Shown piece by piece: positions 26,008 to 32,613 of a stretch of 64,000 nt of DNA (position 1 is its first letter; the number at the start of each line of letters is the position of its first letter). Made by a program: the position numbers and the translations under genes. The notes beneath the pieces were generated by a model. It was not told where the DNA came from. It did not search any database and was given only the letters and a program-made list of their open reading frames with translations. The stretch is from Gemmatimonas phototrophica (GTDB lineage Bacteria; Gemmatimonadota; Gemmatimonadetes; Gemmatimonadales; Gemmatimonadaceae), in assembly GCF_000695095.2 (NCBI RefSeq), contig NZ_CP011454.1:1240001-1304000 (forward strand), in the 5' to 3' direction.

Positions 26008-27636
26008 TCAGTGGGTGAGTGAGGCGTCCCAGTCTACGCGTTCGAGGTTCCCTGAGAGTTGCTGGATGTCTGGTGACAACGGGCGATCCTGATACAGATA
26101 CTCGTGCTGCTCGCGAATCCACCGTACGACGGCCCGACTACCGGGCGAAAAGCCGGCCAGTACGGTGCCGCCGCGTTGTTCCGCTGCCTGCGCAAGCGCC
26201 AGCGCATGAATGGCCAGGACATGAAATACCAGATCGAGCGAGTCGGCCGTCTTGCGCGCGGCAATGGTACCCATCGTCACGACATCCTGATTGTTGGCAT
26301 TCGTGGGCACCGACTGAATGGAGGCTGGTACCGCCCGCGTCCGTAGCTCAGCGACCAGTGCGCTGGCCGTCACCTGGGCCCCCATGAACCCCGAGTTCAC
26401 CCCGTCCGGTCCACCGTGCAGAAAGGCCGGCAGGCCGTGATTCTGGGTGCGGTCGGTGAGTCGCGCAATACAACGCTCGGCATGAATAGCCAGCTTCACG
26501 ACGGCCATCTGCAATGCGTCCGACGCGAAGGCCACGTGCTGCCCGTAAAAATTGCCACCGTGCAGAATCGCGTCATCGTCCGCAAACACCAGCGGGTTAT
26601 CGGTTGCACTATGCAGCTCCACCGTAACGGTCTCATCGTGGAAGCGCATGACGTCGAGCACCGCCCCAATGACCTGCGGTACACAGCGAATGGTGTACGG
26701 ATCCTGCGGACACTCCCCTTCGGGAAGCCACCCTTCCACGGCCTGTGATTCGTCGAGACGCGGCGGGGGCTGGACATGGGGAACGAGTCGGTCGCTGCCG
26801 GCAGTCCAACGCTGGAGCGCGGCATGGGCCGTCTTCTGCCCGGGATGAGGGCGTGCGTCGGCGAATCGTGCATCCCATGCTTCCAGGCGACCGCCCAGGC
26901 ATTCGGCGTACAGGACGCTGAGGCGCAGGGCAAGATGGGCGGCCCGTCGGGCCCGTTCGGCATTCACGGCGGCAATGCCGGTCATGCAGGAGGTGCCGTT
27001 GACCAAGGCAATGCCCTCTTTATGCCCGAGCGTTATGGGGGCCAGCCCTGCGGCCTGCAAGGCGGCGCTCGCCGGCAGTCGCGTTCCGTCGTACCACATT
27101 TCACCCTCACCCATCAGGGTGAGCGCCACGTGGGCCAATGGGGTGAGGTCACCGCTTGCACCCACCGTGCCCATCTCGGGGACTACGGGGACGAGCCCGA
27201 GATTGAGGCACTCGAGCAGACGATCGAAGAGCGGCGCGCTCACGCCCGAGTATCCACGTGCAAGGCTTGAGGCACGCGCAGCCATCATGGCGCGCGTGTG
27301 TACCGGCGACAGGGGTTTCCCCACCCCGCTGCACAGGTGATACACCAGATTGCGCTGCAGCAGGTGAGCATGCTCAGGCGTGACGGGATGCGACGCCAGC
27401 GGGCCGTACCCCGTGGTGACGCCATAAATGCGTCGGCGCTCTTCAACCATGCGGGTGAGCGTGGCGTGCGACGCGGCCATCCGCGCGCGTGCGTCCTCTC
27501 CAATGTGAACCGGGCATGCGCCCGTGGCTACGGCGTGGATGTCCCGGGTGGTGAGCGTGCCGCCGAGGTCCACAGACGACGCCAGGCAGGGCATTGTCGC
27601 GATAACCTCTTCCGGTAGGACTGCTGTTGCCATCAT
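26008..27636 (-). CDS. tal: tyrosine ammonia-lyase for PYP chromophore synthesis (easily misnamed HutH)
   Basis: MIO-dependent aromatic amino acid ammonia-lyase, 542 residues. The prosthetic group forms from Ala160-Ser161-Gly162 in GTVGASGDLTPLAH. Tyr71 (IYGVTTGYG) is the catalytic loop Tyr. The residues that set substrate choice, after NLV, are His100-Leu101 (NLVYHLCSGVG): His-Leu is the tyrosine-specific pair of Rhodobacter TAL, while HutH has Ser-His and plant PAL has Phe-Leu. Other blocks (LRPHPGQK-like ARPHPGQK, LHGGNFYGQHVA, NSGFMGAQVTA, TNANNQDVV) also follow the Rhodobacter enzyme. The product p-coumarate is the PYP chromophore, and a PYP gene lies 4 kb away. ATG 27636 follows AGGA; ATG 27633 is an alternative. 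Confidence 0.9.
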   Translation of the reverse strand: MMATAVLPEEVIATMPCLASSVDLGGTLTTRDIHAVATGACPVHIGEDARARMAASHATLTRMVEERRRIYGVTTGYGPLASHPVTPEHAHLLQRNLVYHLCSGVGKPLSPVHTRAMMAARASSLARGYSGVSAPLFDRLLECLNLGLVPVVPEMGTVGASGDLTPLAHVALTLMGEGEMWYDGTRLPASAALQAAGLAPITLGHKEGIALVNGTSCMTGIAAVNAERARRAAHLALRLSVLYAECLGGRLEAWDARFADARPHPGQKTAHAALQRWTAGSDRLVPHVQPPPRLDESQAVEGWLPEGECPQDPYTIRCVPQVIGAVLDVMRFHDETVTVELHSATDNPLVFADDDAILHGGNFYGQHVAFASDALQMAVVKLAIHAERCIARLTDRTQNHGLPAFLHGGPDGVNSGFMGAQVTASALVAELRTRAVPASIQSVPTNANNQDVVTMGTIAARKTADSLDLVFHVLAIHALALAQAAEQRGGTVLAGFSPGSRAVVRWIREQHEYLYQDRPLSPDIQQLSGNLERVDWDASLTH

Positions 27637-28468
27637 GATTCCTGTCGACATGTCCAACTCGCCTTCCCAAGAGCCAACGCACTCCGGCATCGGAATGGGG
27701 CCCGCGACCGCCCTGTGGCGCGATCGTTTGCATCGGTGTCTTGCCTCGAACGCCACACCGGTGGTGCTGTTCCCCGACGCGGTGCGCAGTGCGGCGTCTC
27801 TTTGGGCCGGGATGCGCACCTGGACGCACCACCTGCGAAACGCCGGTATTCTGGCTGGCGACGTGGTGGTGTGTGCGCTGCCGTCAGGGGACGGGCTGCT
27901 GCAGTTGTTGCTGGCCTGCTTGTGGGATGGAATTTCCGTGGAGATCCATTCGCCCGACTGCGAGCTCAGTGCTTTGCTCGGGCGCGTTGAACGGGTCGAC
28001 GGCACGGTGCTGGTGGTGTCGTTGCTTCCGGAGATGGCGCCGCCGTGGATGCATGCTCCGGCGAATGGCGGATGGCCCAACGAGTCCCGCAGCCTCACCA
28101 GCCGTTGCTCCCACCCTCGCCAGCCCGATCGCCTCGAGGAGCCGGTCGTGCGTCTGCGCGATAAGCGCGGGCTGACGCACGCGGAGTTGCTCCATGCTGT
28201 CATGGAGCAGTGTCGCGATGCATCGTTGCAGGGACGCTGTGTCCTGAGCCTCGTTGACTGGCACCATGAGTCGGGATTGGTTGGTGGTGTGTTGGCCCCC
28301 TTGCTTTGCGCCGAGGAACTGTTCGTGCTGAGCGCGCACGACATCACCGCCATCGAACGCGTGCTGGGCCACGAGCCAGTGAGCCATGTCCTCGTGGGAT
28401 CCGTGGACGAGCAGCGATTTCGCCAGGTTCTCACCCTCCCGTCCCACGTGACGCTGCGGCTCTGTTGA
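27635..28468 (+). CDS. pcl: shortened AMP-dependent ligase-like protein, candidate p-coumarate:CoA ligase
   Basis: A 277-residue relative of the N-terminal half of acyl-CoA synthetases. DVVVCALPSGDGLLQLLLACLWDG (77-100), THAELLHAV (181-189) and LSLVDWHHESGLVGGVLAPLL (205-224) match family blocks. The ATP-binding TSGTTGxPK loop, expected around residue 172-180, is replaced by VRLRDKRG, and nothing equivalent to the C-terminal A5-A10 motifs follows. No frameshifted remainder was found in other frames. PYP loci carry a pCL ligase that activates p-coumarate, and this gene is divergent from tal, so it is the positional candidate; activity is doubtful from sequence. Alternative starts are ATG 27650 and ATG 27695. 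The first two overlap or abut the tal start. Confidence 0.62.
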   Translation: MIPVDMSNSPSQEPTHSGIGMGPATALWRDRLHRCLASNATPVVLFPDAVRSAASLWAGMRTWTHHLRNAGILAGDVVVCALPSGDGLLQLLLACLWDGISVEIHSPDCELSALLGRVERVDGTVLVVSLLPEMAPPWMHAPANGGWPNESRSLTSRCSHPRQPDRLEEPVVRLRDKRGLTHAELLHAVMEQCRDASLQGRCVLSLVDWHHESGLVGGVLAPLLCAEELFVLSAHDITAIERVLGHEPVSHVLVGSVDEQRFRQVLTLPSHVTLRLC

Positions 28469-28509: not shown

Positions 28510-29985
28510 TCATGCGGCCGCCAACATGAGCGTCCATCGCTGGGTGTCGGTATCCCGCTCCAACAGTCGGTCGAAATCAACGATCCCGACGATCCGCTGG
28601 TCGGCCTGAACAAATCCCCGCAGCGGGGCCTGTTCGAGCATGGCAGGCATCGATTTGAGACTGCCGCGGCAGACGCCTTCGACTCCGCGTACTCGCAGCG
28701 CAAGGGCGTCTCCTTCGTCCCCATCCGGACGGACATGGACATACGTGGCCTCATCCGCACTGATGGGCGCTTGGAACATGCTGTCGCCCAGATCGATGAG
28801 TTGCACTGTACCGCCATCCTGGCGGCTGATCAGACGACTGCCCTGTACGGCAACCGCAGACGCATCCCGGCGTTCAATGTGTCCCACCATGCGCATGGGG
28901 ATACCTACCACGGCGTCCCGGTCGGATGCGCCCACGCGCAACATGAGGTACTCCGTGACACTGGCCACATCGCACCGGAAGATCATTGTGCTGCCTGTGC
29001 CCGCATTCTGTGAGAGACTCAGCTTCAAGTCCCGAATGGGCCAGGCGCGCCACTGGGGATGGTAGTCCACGGTCCCGTCGGCATCATCACTGAGCATAAG
29101 TTCGACCCGGTCTCCCGTGCGTTTCAATGACACGCGCAACGTGACATGGGCGGGCAGCCCTGCTTCCATACGCTCCTGCGCGGTGCGATGGAGCGATGAT
29201 GCGGCAATCGCACTCATCCATTCGGCGCTGGCCTTGAGGAGGGCGTTCGCAACGGCACTGGGGATGGTGAGGTTGTAGTCCGGGCTTTCTTGCGACAACG
29301 CCACGCGAACGGGTGCCTGTCCCAGTTGCCGAATCAGCACGCCCTCGAACGCGTGGGCAAAGTCGACCACCGACACCCGTAGTGCGCCGCCGACTTTCTC
29401 GATGACGGCACTGATCGCCTTGCTCATTTCCTGACGAACCGGCTGCGAATCGGTGTGCCGGGCAATCTGATCCTGGGCCACCAGCAACGACTCCACGGCA
29501 TCACGGCCACCGGCACTGGCAGAAGCCATAAGCGAGAACAGACGGTCCGTCCGCTCAATGGCACCACGCGCCGCTCCTGCAGGATCGGCCGCGATCTTCT
29601 GCACGAGAAAGGCGGATTCGGCATCGAGGTGAAGTTCGACCGCTTCCAGCAGATACGACAGGGCAGCACCACGCGCCATCAAAGCCGGGTTCGCCGTTCC
29701 CAGCAGAATGGTCTGGTACTGCATCTGCAGGTTATAGCGCATCCATTCGAATCGCAGTTCGAGCCAGATCCACGGCAGCATGTTGTGCGCTTCCGAGGTA
29801 TCGTCGTCGAAGCACACGTCACGCAGCGACTCGGCAATGCCATGCAGGCGCGCGTCCGTATGCTCCACGATCGCTTCGGCGTCGGTATCACTGACGCCGC
29901 CCAGTTCCTCGATCATGAGCCGAATGCGATCACGTACATCGGCACTGTCAAGGAGTGCGAGCAATGCAGGGAGACGGTCTGTCAT
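28510..29985 (-). CDS. CheA-like signalling protein with degenerate ATPase and CheW-type domains
   Basis: A 491-residue soluble protein, last gene of the PYP operon. Residues 1-125 are helical and contain WLELRFEW (74-81), shared exactly with the protein at 31075-31530. Residues 200-345 look like a histidine-kinase ATPase: the G2-like end GTGSTMIFR is recognisable, but the N-box Asn is missing (ALLKASAEWM) and the G1 box is SDDADGTVD. Residues 343-478 resemble a CheW/CheA regulatory domain (GIPMRMVGHIERR ... VDFDRLL). No phosphorylatable Hpt His motif was recognised. It probably works as a scaffold or sensor protein rather than an active kinase. AAGGAG overlaps the HDOD gene end, 7 bases before ATG. 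Confidence 0.75.
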   Translation of the reverse strand: MTDRLPALLALLDSADVRDRIRLMIEELGGVSDTDAEAIVEHTDARLHGIAESLRDVCFDDDTSEAHNMLPWIWLELRFEWMRYNLQMQYQTILLGTANPALMARGAALSYLLEAVELHLDAESAFLVQKIAADPAGAARGAIERTDRLFSLMASASAGGRDAVESLLVAQDQIARHTDSQPVRQEMSKAISAVIEKVGGALRVSVVDFAHAFEGVLIRQLGQAPVRVALSQESPDYNLTIPSAVANALLKASAEWMSAIAASSLHRTAQERMEAGLPAHVTLRVSLKRTGDRVELMLSDDADGTVDYHPQWRAWPIRDLKLSLSQNAGTGSTMIFRCDVASVTEYLMLRVGASDRDAVVGIPMRMVGHIERRDASAVAVQGSRLISRQDGGTVQLIDLGDSMFQAPISADEATYVHVRPDGDEGDALALRVRGVEGVCRGSLKSMPAMLEQAPLRGFVQADQRIVGIVDFDRLLERDTDTQRWTLMLAAA

Positions 29986-29995
29986 ATAGGGCTCC

Positions 29996-31069
29996 TTACG
30001 CCGCGTGCTGGAACTGCTGCAACGCTGTGGCCACGCGGGCCGGTGAGCCGGTCAGCCGACCCAACTGCCAGAGGGCATCAAGATCCAATGGAGATGACCG
30101 GCGCATGGCGTGGTCAGCCCGTTCCGCCAGGAACAGCACCTCCGACAAGGAATCACGTTGCGTGGCGTGCATCATCCGATGGTGTGTCCCAATGGCATTC
30201 GCGGCGCGCTCACCCATCCCCCATCGTTCAGCGGCCAGCGCACCGATCGGCTCGTGCAACTCTTGCAGCAACAGATGTGCGAAGCTGGCATCGAGGGTAA
30301 TGGGGCGGCGCCGCGATGCCCGCAGTACAGAAATTCGATCGAAAATCACCAGTTTCCCGATGTCGTGGAGCAGGGCGATGGCGAAGGCTTCATCCGCCTC
30401 GGCGGCAAATGCCGGTGCCATGGCGCGGGCCAGCGGTGCGGTACGCACCATGTGCGCCCACACGTCAGCAGCCATGGCATTGAATTCGCCACCGGGATGA
30501 CTGAGCAGCCCGTCGACGCAGCTGGCGAGTACGACGGCGCGGGTGCCACTCACACCAATCCGGTCGAGGGCCTGATCAATCCCGAGTACCGCGGCGCGGC
30601 CGGCCGAAAAGGCGGCCGAATTTGCAGTGCGGAGGAGCCCCTGCACGAGGGCGGGATCGTTCCCCAGTTTTGCGCCCAATTGGGAGCGTGAAAGACTGGC
30701 GTCTTCACAAAAGGCCAGTGCCTGGCGGGCGGCCGTGGGCAGTTGACGGATGACCGCCTCTGGTCCATCGCGCAGCAATTGTACCAGTGCTGCCGCATCG
30801 GGTTGCTGTGCCGCCACCGGATGTGCCTTGAGCAGATCGTCCACCTGGTCGAGCCGATTCCCCCAGCGCTGCGTCCAGTCGATACGTTCGGCCGCTATCG
30901 CTGGTGTGGCCATCGCCGTGGCGGCCGCGACACGTGTGACCGTGACGTCTGAAGTCACTGGCGTGGGCGCGCTCTGGTCCTCGCCGACTTCAGCACCGCT
31001 GCGCGGACGTACGGGGGCCGACTGGGGTGCTGTCCGGCGGCGCAAGAGACGGCGAAACCAGGAGATCAT
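29996..31069 (-). CDS. HDOD-domain signalling protein
   Basis: A 357-residue protein. A basic N terminus (MISWFRRLLRRR) and an Ala/Pro/Thr-rich linker lead into an HDOD domain at about 108-300. Unlike many HDOD proteins it keeps HD-type residues: LLHDIGK (233-239) and THH (295-297), so metal binding or phosphohydrolase activity is conceivable. HDOD proteins take part in chemotaxis, cyclic-di-GMP and development signalling. Five bases separate it from the upstream helical protein and ten from the CheA-like gene, so the three are surely co-transcribed with PYP upstream. Confidence 0.85.
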   Translation of the reverse strand: MISWFRRLLRRRTAPQSAPVRPRSGAEVGEDQSAPTPVTSDVTVTRVAAATAMATPAIAAERIDWTQRWGNRLDQVDDLLKAHPVAAQQPDAAALVQLLRDGPEAVIRQLPTAARQALAFCEDASLSRSQLGAKLGNDPALVQGLLRTANSAAFSAGRAAVLGIDQALDRIGVSGTRAVVLASCVDGLLSHPGGEFNAMAADVWAHMVRTAPLARAMAPAFAAEADEAFAIALLHDIGKLVIFDRISVLRASRRRPITLDASFAHLLLQELHEPIGALAAERWGMGERAANAIGTHHRMMHATQRDSLSEVLFLAERADHAMRRSSPLDLDALWQLGRLTGSPARVATALQQFQHAA

Positions 31070-31074
31070 GGTGG

Positions 31075-31530
31075 CTAGTCCGCGGAAGAGACGCGAGCGT
31101 GCTCGACATCGGTGCGCAGGGCGTCGAGCATGTCGACTGCTGAGTCGCCGAGGCGCTCACGGTGTTCCTGGGCCAGCAGGGCCTCGATTCGATCGAGGAC
31201 GTAGGACGCCACAGAGGCGCGCACCATGATGAGCGGAGCGCAGGTACCCGTGCGCATGGTATCGTAGTTGGCCACGAGATTGTGGCGCTGCCATTCAAAG
31301 CGCAGCTCCAGCCACAGCGCGGCCAACGACCGATAGAGTTCCGGCTCATCCTCGTCTTCACCCATGGCTTCCGCGAGCGATGTGATATCGTTGCACAAAC
31401 GCATCGCGTCGTCCACGACCTGCGCGCGGACGTCAGCGGGTAACTCGAGGGACTCGGCTATCGCACGGGTGTCGGTGGCAATAACGGCAGCATCGGCAAT
31501 ATGAATCAGCTGTGCAGCAAGTGTTGGCAT
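31075..31530 (-). CDS. small all-helical protein with WLELRFEW domain, PYP operon
   Basis: A 151-residue protein of unknown function, predicted mostly helical. The centre (ALWLELRFEWQRHNL, 71-85) is nearly the same as residues 72-86 of the CheA-like protein encoded two genes downstream, and the flanking helices (IMVRASVASYVLDRIEALL against LMARGAALSYLLEAVELHL) align too. It is therefore a stand-alone copy of that protein's N-terminal domain, plausibly a dimerisation or PYP-binding module; this is inference. The start at 31530 was chosen because the residues encoded further upstream overlap pyp and look unrelated. Confidence 0.7.
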   Translation of the reverse strand: MPTLAAQLIHIADAAVIATDTRAIAESLELPADVRAQVVDDAMRLCNDITSLAEAMGEDEDEPELYRSLAALWLELRFEWQRHNLVANYDTMRTGTCAPLIMVRASVASYVLDRIEALLAQEHRERLGDSAVDMLDALRTDVEHARVSSAD

Positions 31531-31576
31531 GGTACTCACGCGCGAAAAACGATGAACCTGACCATCAGGTAAGGAG

Positions 31577-31621: not shown

Positions 31622-31996
31622 TCAGGCGGCGCGCAGGCCAACGAGCACCCAGTTCGTTGCCGAGGGCGCATGGCGGAACAGGCGGATCTGCACGTTCGTG
31701 GGCTTCATTTTGTAGGTGAAGGTGTAGTTGAACTCCGAATCGAGTTCACCTTTGGCCACCCCATCCTTGAACTTGCCGAACATGAGCCGGTTGTTGGTGC
31801 ACGGCGCAACCTGCGTGAAGAAGTTGCGCCCTTCGGCGGAGGCCACGGGGACGCCGGCCATTTCCGATTCCCAGCGATTGTAGAGCTTGATCACACCCGC
31901 ATCATCCACCTGCACAATGCCGAAGGGCTGGGCATCGGCGTTGGGGCGATCCACTGAGGGAATCTGGGCAATGAACTGTGAAGGTACGAAGGACAT
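31622..31996 (-). CDS. pyp: photoactive yellow protein (PYP), blue-light photoreceptor
   Basis: A 124-residue PAS-fold photoreceptor that binds p-coumarate by thioester to Cys66 (FFTQVAPCTNN). Compared with Halorhodospira halophila PYP, Tyr39 equals Tyr42, Asn40 equals Asn43, Glu43 equals Glu46, and Tyr91, Phe93, Tyr95 and Met97 equal Tyr94, Phe96, Tyr98 and Met100. So the hydrogen-bond pocket is intact. Thr50 is Ala47 and Arg52 is Val49 here, which may shift colour or photocycle rate. The FGKFKDGVAKGELD and YTFTYKMKPT segments are strongly PYP. GAGGAG lies 7 bases before ATG 31996. It is the second gene of a five-gene minus-strand operon, with tal nearby for the chromophore. Confidence 0.95.
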   Translation of the reverse strand: MSFVPSQFIAQIPSVDRPNADAQPFGIVQVDDAGVIKLYNRWESEMAGVPVASAEGRNFFTQVAPCTNNRLMFGKFKDGVAKGELDSEFNYTFTYKMKPTNVQIRLFRHAPSATNWVLVGLRAA

Positions 31997-32055: not shown

Positions 32056-32613
32056 TCAGGAGAAGGATTGATCGACGAGCGCGTTGACGAGTTCGCGGGC
32101 GCGACGTTTGGCAGAGCTTACGTCGTGGGCGGCACGGTCAAGCTGTTCTGCGAGGTCGTTCCGCTCTTCAAGGAGGGACGCCACCTGCGCTTCGAGGCTC
32201 TGGACCATCTCGATCGCTTCGAGATGTCCGTATGCGGCGGTTGCCCGCTCGTCATACAACGCGTGCAACTGCTCGGTGAGACTGCCCAGCGTTTCGGAGA
32301 GCGCGGCATGGTCTCCCGCCGGCGCGCTGCTTGCCTCGGGGTGGCCATGTTCACGCGCTTCGTAGAACTCGCCCAATTGGGCGGCGAGGCTTTCCACGCT
32401 GCTGCGGAGCTCCGCAATCGTGCGTGCACTCAGGCGCTGTTTGTCTTCATACAGCGCGGTAAGGGCTTCGTCGGGGGCAGCCTGTTGCCAGGACTGTTCC
32501 TTCTCCTCGTAGAGACTGACGAGTTGGGCTTCCAGATTCCCAAGCATCTCCCGGAGCGCTTCCAGCGACTCCGGAGCGCTCGCTGAGAGCGCGTGTCGAA
32601 TGTCCAGGGCCAA
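32056..32613 (-). CDS. coiled-coil repeat protein, first gene of PYP operon
   Basis: A 185-residue, acidic, Leu/Glu/Ala-rich protein predicted to be one long coiled coil. A motif of the form SLxxQLxxLYEE(K/R) recurs about four times: NLEAQLVSLYEEKE, SLAAQLGEFYEARE, SLTEQLHALYDERA and SLEAQVASLLEERN. No known domain was recognised. The start is TTG at 32613, supported by GAGGTG five bases upstream; no Met occurs before residue 23. A possible -10 (TATACG, about 32668-32673 on the minus strand) lies further up. It could be a PYP partner or scaffold; this is inferred only from operon position. Confidence 0.68.
   Translation of the reverse strand: MALDIRHALSASAPESLEALREMLGNLEAQLVSLYEEKEQSWQQAAPDEALTALYEDKQRLSARTIAELRSSVESLAAQLGEFYEAREHGHPEASSAPAGDHAALSETLGSLTEQLHALYDERATAAYGHLEAIEMVQSLEAQVASLLEERNDLAEQLDRAAHDVSSAKRRARELVNALVDQSFS

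Follow-up and report, generated by a model that had tools for sequence, protein, structure and literature searches.

A six-helix domain that follows one branch of the photoactive yellow proteins and is fused to CheA-like proteins is a candidate signalling adaptor

Two genes of a photoactive yellow protein (PYP) cluster in Gemmatimonas phototrophica encode copies of one helical domain, the first free and the second at the N-terminus of a CheA-like protein. Analysis of their relatives suggests that this is a distinct, previously unnamed six-helix domain that serves a single PYP branch as a transducer or adaptor and links the sensor with proteins of the CheA family and, in this cluster, also with an HDOD-domain protein; we put the probability of this reading, domain identity and role together, at about 0.6. 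PYP is a textbook photoreceptor, a bacterial blue-light sensor. Its signalling partner is stated to be unknown in PMC13250908, PMC9664959 and PMC12826048, and the second of these (Xing et al. 2022) describes the signalling route downstream of single-domain PYPs in the same way. By its sequence associations the new domain is a strong candidate for this long-missing partner that relays the PYP light signal. Coordinates below are those of the window, the whole stretch of 64,000 nucleotides that was analysed (contig NZ_CP011454.1, positions 1,240,001–1,304,000).

The cluster lies on the minus strand in the order coiled-coil protein, PYP, free domain copy (P0001), HDOD protein and CheA-like protein (P0002). 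The PYP (P0004, 124 aa, bp 31,622–31,996) has Tyr39, Glu43 and Cys66 spaced as Tyr42, Glu46 and Cys69, which places it in the PYP family, and it matches Ppr-PYP (1mzu) with an E-value of 9e-25. Two further PYP-like proteins, 40% and 34% identical, are encoded elsewhere in this genome (G000:C1:3385550-3385885, minus strand, and 3781117-3781425, plus strand). Upstream of PYP, the 185-aa coiled-coil protein (bp 32,056–32,613) has a repeated pattern around LxxQLxxLYEE; relatives of it precede PYP in loci L035, L036 and L037, and short stretches resembling it also lie close to PYP in Bdellovibrionota. The HDOD gene (bp 29,996–31,069; 357 aa, PF08668 with E 8e-28) lies between the free and fused domain copies with gaps of 5 and 10 bases. 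Such a gene adjoins a free domain copy in the window and three other genomes; it occupies the equivalent position in Sphaerotilus natans and a Pseudomonadota metagenome-assembled genome (MAG), and lies behind the free copies in L037. No literature joining PYP and HDOD was found. A hairpin (ACCTGA-TGG-TCAGGT, bp 31,556–31,570, minus strand) precedes a T-run between PYP and P0001; it is weak evidence for a possible attenuator that could lower downstream expression relative to PYP, as the region holds five sites of this type where 2.8 would be expected.

Two further genes lie beyond P0002. The aromatic amino acid (tyrosine) ammonia lyase gene, for chromophore synthesis (bp 26,008–27,555, minus strand), matches PF00221 at E 3.5e-161 over ORF residues 294–775, and divergent from it is a short p-coumarate-CoA-ligase-like ORF (bp 27,524–28,468, plus strand; 314 aa) whose only Pfam match is to PF00501 at E 0.023. 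The ligase-like ORF is short in four related clusters (241–346 aa), where the Pfam AMP-binding family matches barely or not at all; the counterparts are L035:8402-9124, L036:4852-5757 and L037:13977-15014. From these sequences we propose that it encodes either a reduced form of the ligase or a different activating enzyme.

P0001 (151 aa, bp 31,075–31,530, minus strand) and P0002 share the octamer WLELRFEW, as the first-pass annotation had noted, at residues 73–80 (bp 31,291–31,314) and 74–81 (bp 29,743–29,766), respectively. Different codons specify it in the two genes, and a degenerate DNA pattern for the octamer matches with zero mismatches only at these two sites in the 4.72 Mb genome. The similarity extends well past the octamer into the flanks, which had already been thought alignable: compared by BLASTP, the two sequences are 39% identical over 85 residues (E = 6e-16), which rules out a chance octamer, and a search of the genome with the domain aligns residues 8–143 with 33% identity (E = 7e-15). 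P0001 and P0002 are the sole two places found, and a repeat search with the 44-row family profile again returned just these copies. The fused copy was earlier put at 125 residues; this is close, and it now appears to span about residues 1–133 of P0002 (bp 29,587–29,985, minus strand), where the AlphaFold2 model places helices from 4 to 133. Thus, on sequence similarity, P0001 and P0002 residues 1–133 are homologous, far beyond what chance would give.

The AlphaFold2 model of P0001, made from a 44-row alignment, is all-helical with six helices (mean pLDDT 97). Searches of Pfam, NCBIfam and the sequences of the PDB with all 44 domain members gave no informative match; the few weak matches involve single members or coiled-coil and other helical proteins. 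With the domain model, Foldseek gave no hit below E 0.001, and the highest-scoring VIA match (Z 8.4, rmsd 4.1, 105 residues) is level with unrelated helical bundles. Trp80 is present in all 44 members and Asn84 in 43, followed in conservation by Glu116, an aromatic residue at 73, Asn/Gln88, Tyr89 and Lys/Arg77; the spacing of residues 73, 77, 80, 84 and 88 predicts that they share one side of the long fourth helix. No alignment column holds more than eight histidines, so the domain is not an Hpt domain, and none of the 44 members matches the Pfam Hpt family (PF01627), which does detect Hpt in the true CheA proteins of L062, L063, L068, L038 and L039. The shared module had not been recognised as a named domain at first sight, and that impression holds; the profile search suggested then as a check finds the similarity to be neither chance nor, in these databases, a match to a known domain.

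P0002 (491 aa, bp 28,510–29,985, minus strand) consists, in the AlphaFold2 model (mean pLDDT 84), of the new domain followed by a P3-like hairpin (residues ∼135–201), a P4-like ATPase fold (∼202–341) and a P5/CheW-like part (∼342–475). Residues 152–475 match CheA P3-P4-P5 in Foldseek (E 7e-18) and 3ja6_C in VIA (Z 21.5, 5.1 Å over 312 residues), and no Hpt domain was detected in P0002 with Pfam. P0002 and its 14 homologues, 15 proteins in all, lack both the N-box asparagine and the SGRGVGMD segment with the ATP lid, motifs that ATP binding requires; eight true CheA sequences aligned alongside keep them. This loss within a P3-P4-P5 fold indicates that P0002 is, as judged from sequence and model, a pseudokinase derived from CheA, with the new domain standing in place of P1 and P2. 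No relatives of P0002 were found in 60 related genomes.

A scan of 84,980 species genomes for the window's PYP type gave 57 loci in at least nine phyla, from Betaproteobacteria to Leptospiraceae, most of them in MAGs. With a domain profile built from six sequences and one iteration, 37 of these loci prove to have the domain no more than 10 kb from PYP; all 42 domain ORFs near PYP score E < 1e-26 after one round, and the control with reversed ORFs gave a single hit, at 0.09. Searches of whole genomes found the domain in 43 of 47 PYP genomes (E < 1e-17), including 16 of the 20 whose PYP locus is without it; with ten positive loci outside that search the total comes to 53 of 57, and the four genomes from which it is apparently absent are MAGs. 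Carriers belong to the Gemmatimonadota, Pseudomonadota, Myxococcota, Planctomycetota, Bdellovibrionota, Bacteroidota/Rhodothermota, Ignavibacteria, Spirochaetota and Armatimonadota. An earlier scan of genome contigs, whose pattern came from an alignment of two rows, was too narrow and detected no domain; nothing was found in viral contigs, and a plasmid search returned no relative of P0001 or P0002.

At the ORF level the domain is usually on the same strand as PYP and near it, often 4–33 bases apart. The window's five-gene order is preserved in Sphaerotilus natans ATCC 13338 (L035) and the Pseudomonadota MAG (L036), and the PYPs of both cluster with that of the window in the tree (support 100/99), so from these sequences the five-gene cluster has probably moved between phyla. 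Two other Gemmatimonadota carry close relatives of the window's PYP and both loci encode the domain: G302 (Gemmatimonadaceae) has two tandem free copies and a CheA fusion, and G309 has one free copy directly after PYP. In three Bacteroidota/Rhodothermota loci, proteins of 900–1270 aa with a divergent C-terminal PYP domain (L083:6655-9537, L071:5769-9566 and L087:7119-9809) lie between the free domain gene and PYP; those tested are almost blank in Pfam elsewhere. In Ignavibacteria and Kapaibacteria (L146, L147, L150, L160 and L161) the domain is free and lies away from PYP in surroundings where no CheA was seen, which rejects the idea that CheA stands beside every domain copy. The genes flanking it there seem unrelated, yet recur between genomes.

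The domain follows one PYP branch. Among 240 Bdellovibrionota genomes it occurs in six, and PYP occurs in the same six (five already in the PYP scan, G680 new; 1/C(240,6) = 4e-12, where relatives are non-independent samples and, with a profile trained on PYP-linked copies, the two counts share ascertainment). Among 395 Gemmatimonadota genomes it occurs only in the three whose PYP is 62–100% identical to that of the window. It is found in none of 57 genomes with other PYP branches: 48 Gemmatimonadota with PYP-like proteins (∼31–42% identity) and nine genomes of two proteobacterial classes lack it, so it is not a companion of PYP in general. PYP-family matches were seen in 51 of the 395 Gemmatimonadota genomes, and the PYP-like proteins inspected keep the cysteine. 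Carriers and non-carriers occupy different regions of an 82-row PYP tree, where the label needs three changes, compared with 23.5 in shuffles. Distances between PYPs and between domains correlate (Mantel r 0.60; maximum of 5000 permutations 0.16), a correlation that joint travel or linkage of the two genes alone could also give. The carrier PYPs include those of Leptospiraceae and Salinibacteraceae and are thus probably clade B of Xing et al. (2022; PMC9664959).

The 42 domain ORFs near PYP take three forms: 22 are free (∼150 aa), 14 are N-terminal to CheA-like proteins of ∼480–550 aa, and six, all in Bdellovibrionota, are C-terminal to apparently intact CheA proteins of ∼690–750 aa with Hpt and HATPase_c domains (by Pfam in two of the six, by homology in the other four). 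The PYP ORF starts 4–33 bases from the Bdellovibrionota fusions, and L038, L039 and L068 have separate CheA genes nearby. Its association with a single PYP branch, its frequent place as the gene next to PYP and its fusion to CheA-family proteins at either end are best explained if the domain connects PYP with CheA-type complexes. The abundance of the free form could also be expected of a PYP maturation, chaperone or chromophore-delivery factor that CheA fusion merely keeps near the sensor complex. Such a factor would share its genome, and often its operon, with the PYP, lyase and ligase genes, as the domain does, and in Leptospiraceae (PYP-pCL-domain-TAL) the domain gene even lies between those for the ligase and the lyase. 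Fusion to CheA proteins at both ends fits a maturation role poorly, however; other PYP branches manage without the domain; and holo-PYP formation in H. halophila is accounted for by lyase, ligase and apo-PYP, as is well established and also stated in the excerpts of PMC12826048. We therefore regard a role in maturation as unlikely.

Free and fused copies occur in one cluster in the window, L035, L036, L037 and L053. This arrangement, together with the all-helical fold, would suit a module that serves CheA-like proteins for dimerisation or as a scaffold, with the free copy paired to the fused one and contact with PYP indirect; the first-pass annotation had spoken of an adaptor or dimerisation domain. 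Many genomes, however, encode one free copy alone, so pairing between the two forms cannot be a general role, and the presence of the domain tracks this PYP type in 635 genomes of two phyla; we think this reading quite improbable. The other half of that suggestion, an adaptor that receives the PYP signal, is strongly favoured by linkage, co-occurrence, CheA-family fusions and the spread over many phyla. It seems highly improbable that the domain is a known family under another name, such as the Rhodobacter capsulatus PYP-binding protein cited in the excerpts of PMC9664959, since no named family in Pfam or NCBIfam matches it and it is absent from nine proteobacterial genomes whose PYPs belong to other branches.

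Some observations count against a transducer role: the Leptospiraceae gene order fits maturation as well, four PYP genomes apparently lack the domain, the Ignavibacteria and Kapaibacteria copies are not near PYP and no CheA was seen close to them, and the domain model matches no solved structure above the helical-bundle baseline. A transducer remains the reading that we prefer. It builds on the observed homology, distribution, linkage, architectures, predicted folds and motif loss, and from these we infer physical binding to PYP, its dependence on light, a direction of signalling and an output. Blue light would switch the p-coumaric acid chromophore, and PYP would then bind or release the domain, which, free or within a CheA-family protein, would thereby alter how a CheA-type signalling complex is set. 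At the C-terminus of CheA in Bdellovibrionota the domain could control an active kinase directly, and the P3 (dimerisation), P4 and P5/CheW-like parts of the pseudokinase, a form seen in many other lineages, could dock beside a true CheA or a CheW ring. In the window's operon the free copy may compete with the fused copy or bridge to it, and the HDOD protein encoded between them would be the likeliest output. For a bolder version the odds seem about even: that the domain is a general reader of the light state for the whole PYP branch in many phyla, and so represents an unrecognised class of adaptors through which a soluble PAS photoreceptor connects straight to CheA-type complexes, kinase-dead CheA scaffolds among them, with no chemoreceptor sensor domain. 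A domain that tracks one PYP branch and is fused to the CheA family names concrete, testable proteins, including those of the cultured strain Sphaerotilus natans ATCC 13338. The finding brings to light a family of CheA-derived pseudokinases and, if the proposed role is correct, would show how a cytosolic PAS sensor enters chemosensory pathways.

Comparison with known systems begins with the PYPs themselves. The excerpts of PMC9664959 report a chemoreceptor without a sensor domain adjoining clade B PYPs (Leptospira and Salinibacter), and that clade, like the domain-linked PYPs, includes Leptospiraceae and Salinibacteraceae. They give fewer than five PYP genomes for Gemmatimonadota, a figure that the 51 PYP-family genomes counted here exceed. 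The excerpts of the 2025 operon survey (PMC12826048) list GGDEF/EAL, HisKA/HATPase, ligase and lyase genes and discuss MCP fusions; neither set of excerpts reports the domain, the CheA fusions or the HDOD partners. The R. capsulatus PYP-binding protein (the title of Kim et al. 2021, doi 10.1039/d1cp02731j, as cited in the excerpts of PMC9664959) resembles the proposed domain in being a protein partner of a PYP, but it goes with a clade A PYP; clade A loci, when screened for gene neighbourhoods like that of R. capsulatus, gave nothing informative. An Hpt domain is, like the new domain, helical and N-terminal, at the place of CheA P1, and it differs from the new domain, which has six helices, no conserved histidine and no Pfam Hpt match. 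CheA (P1 to P5) is a further close system: residues 152–475 of P0002 have its P3-P4-P5 fold and domain order, whereas the place of its P1 (Hpt) and P2 is taken by the new domain.
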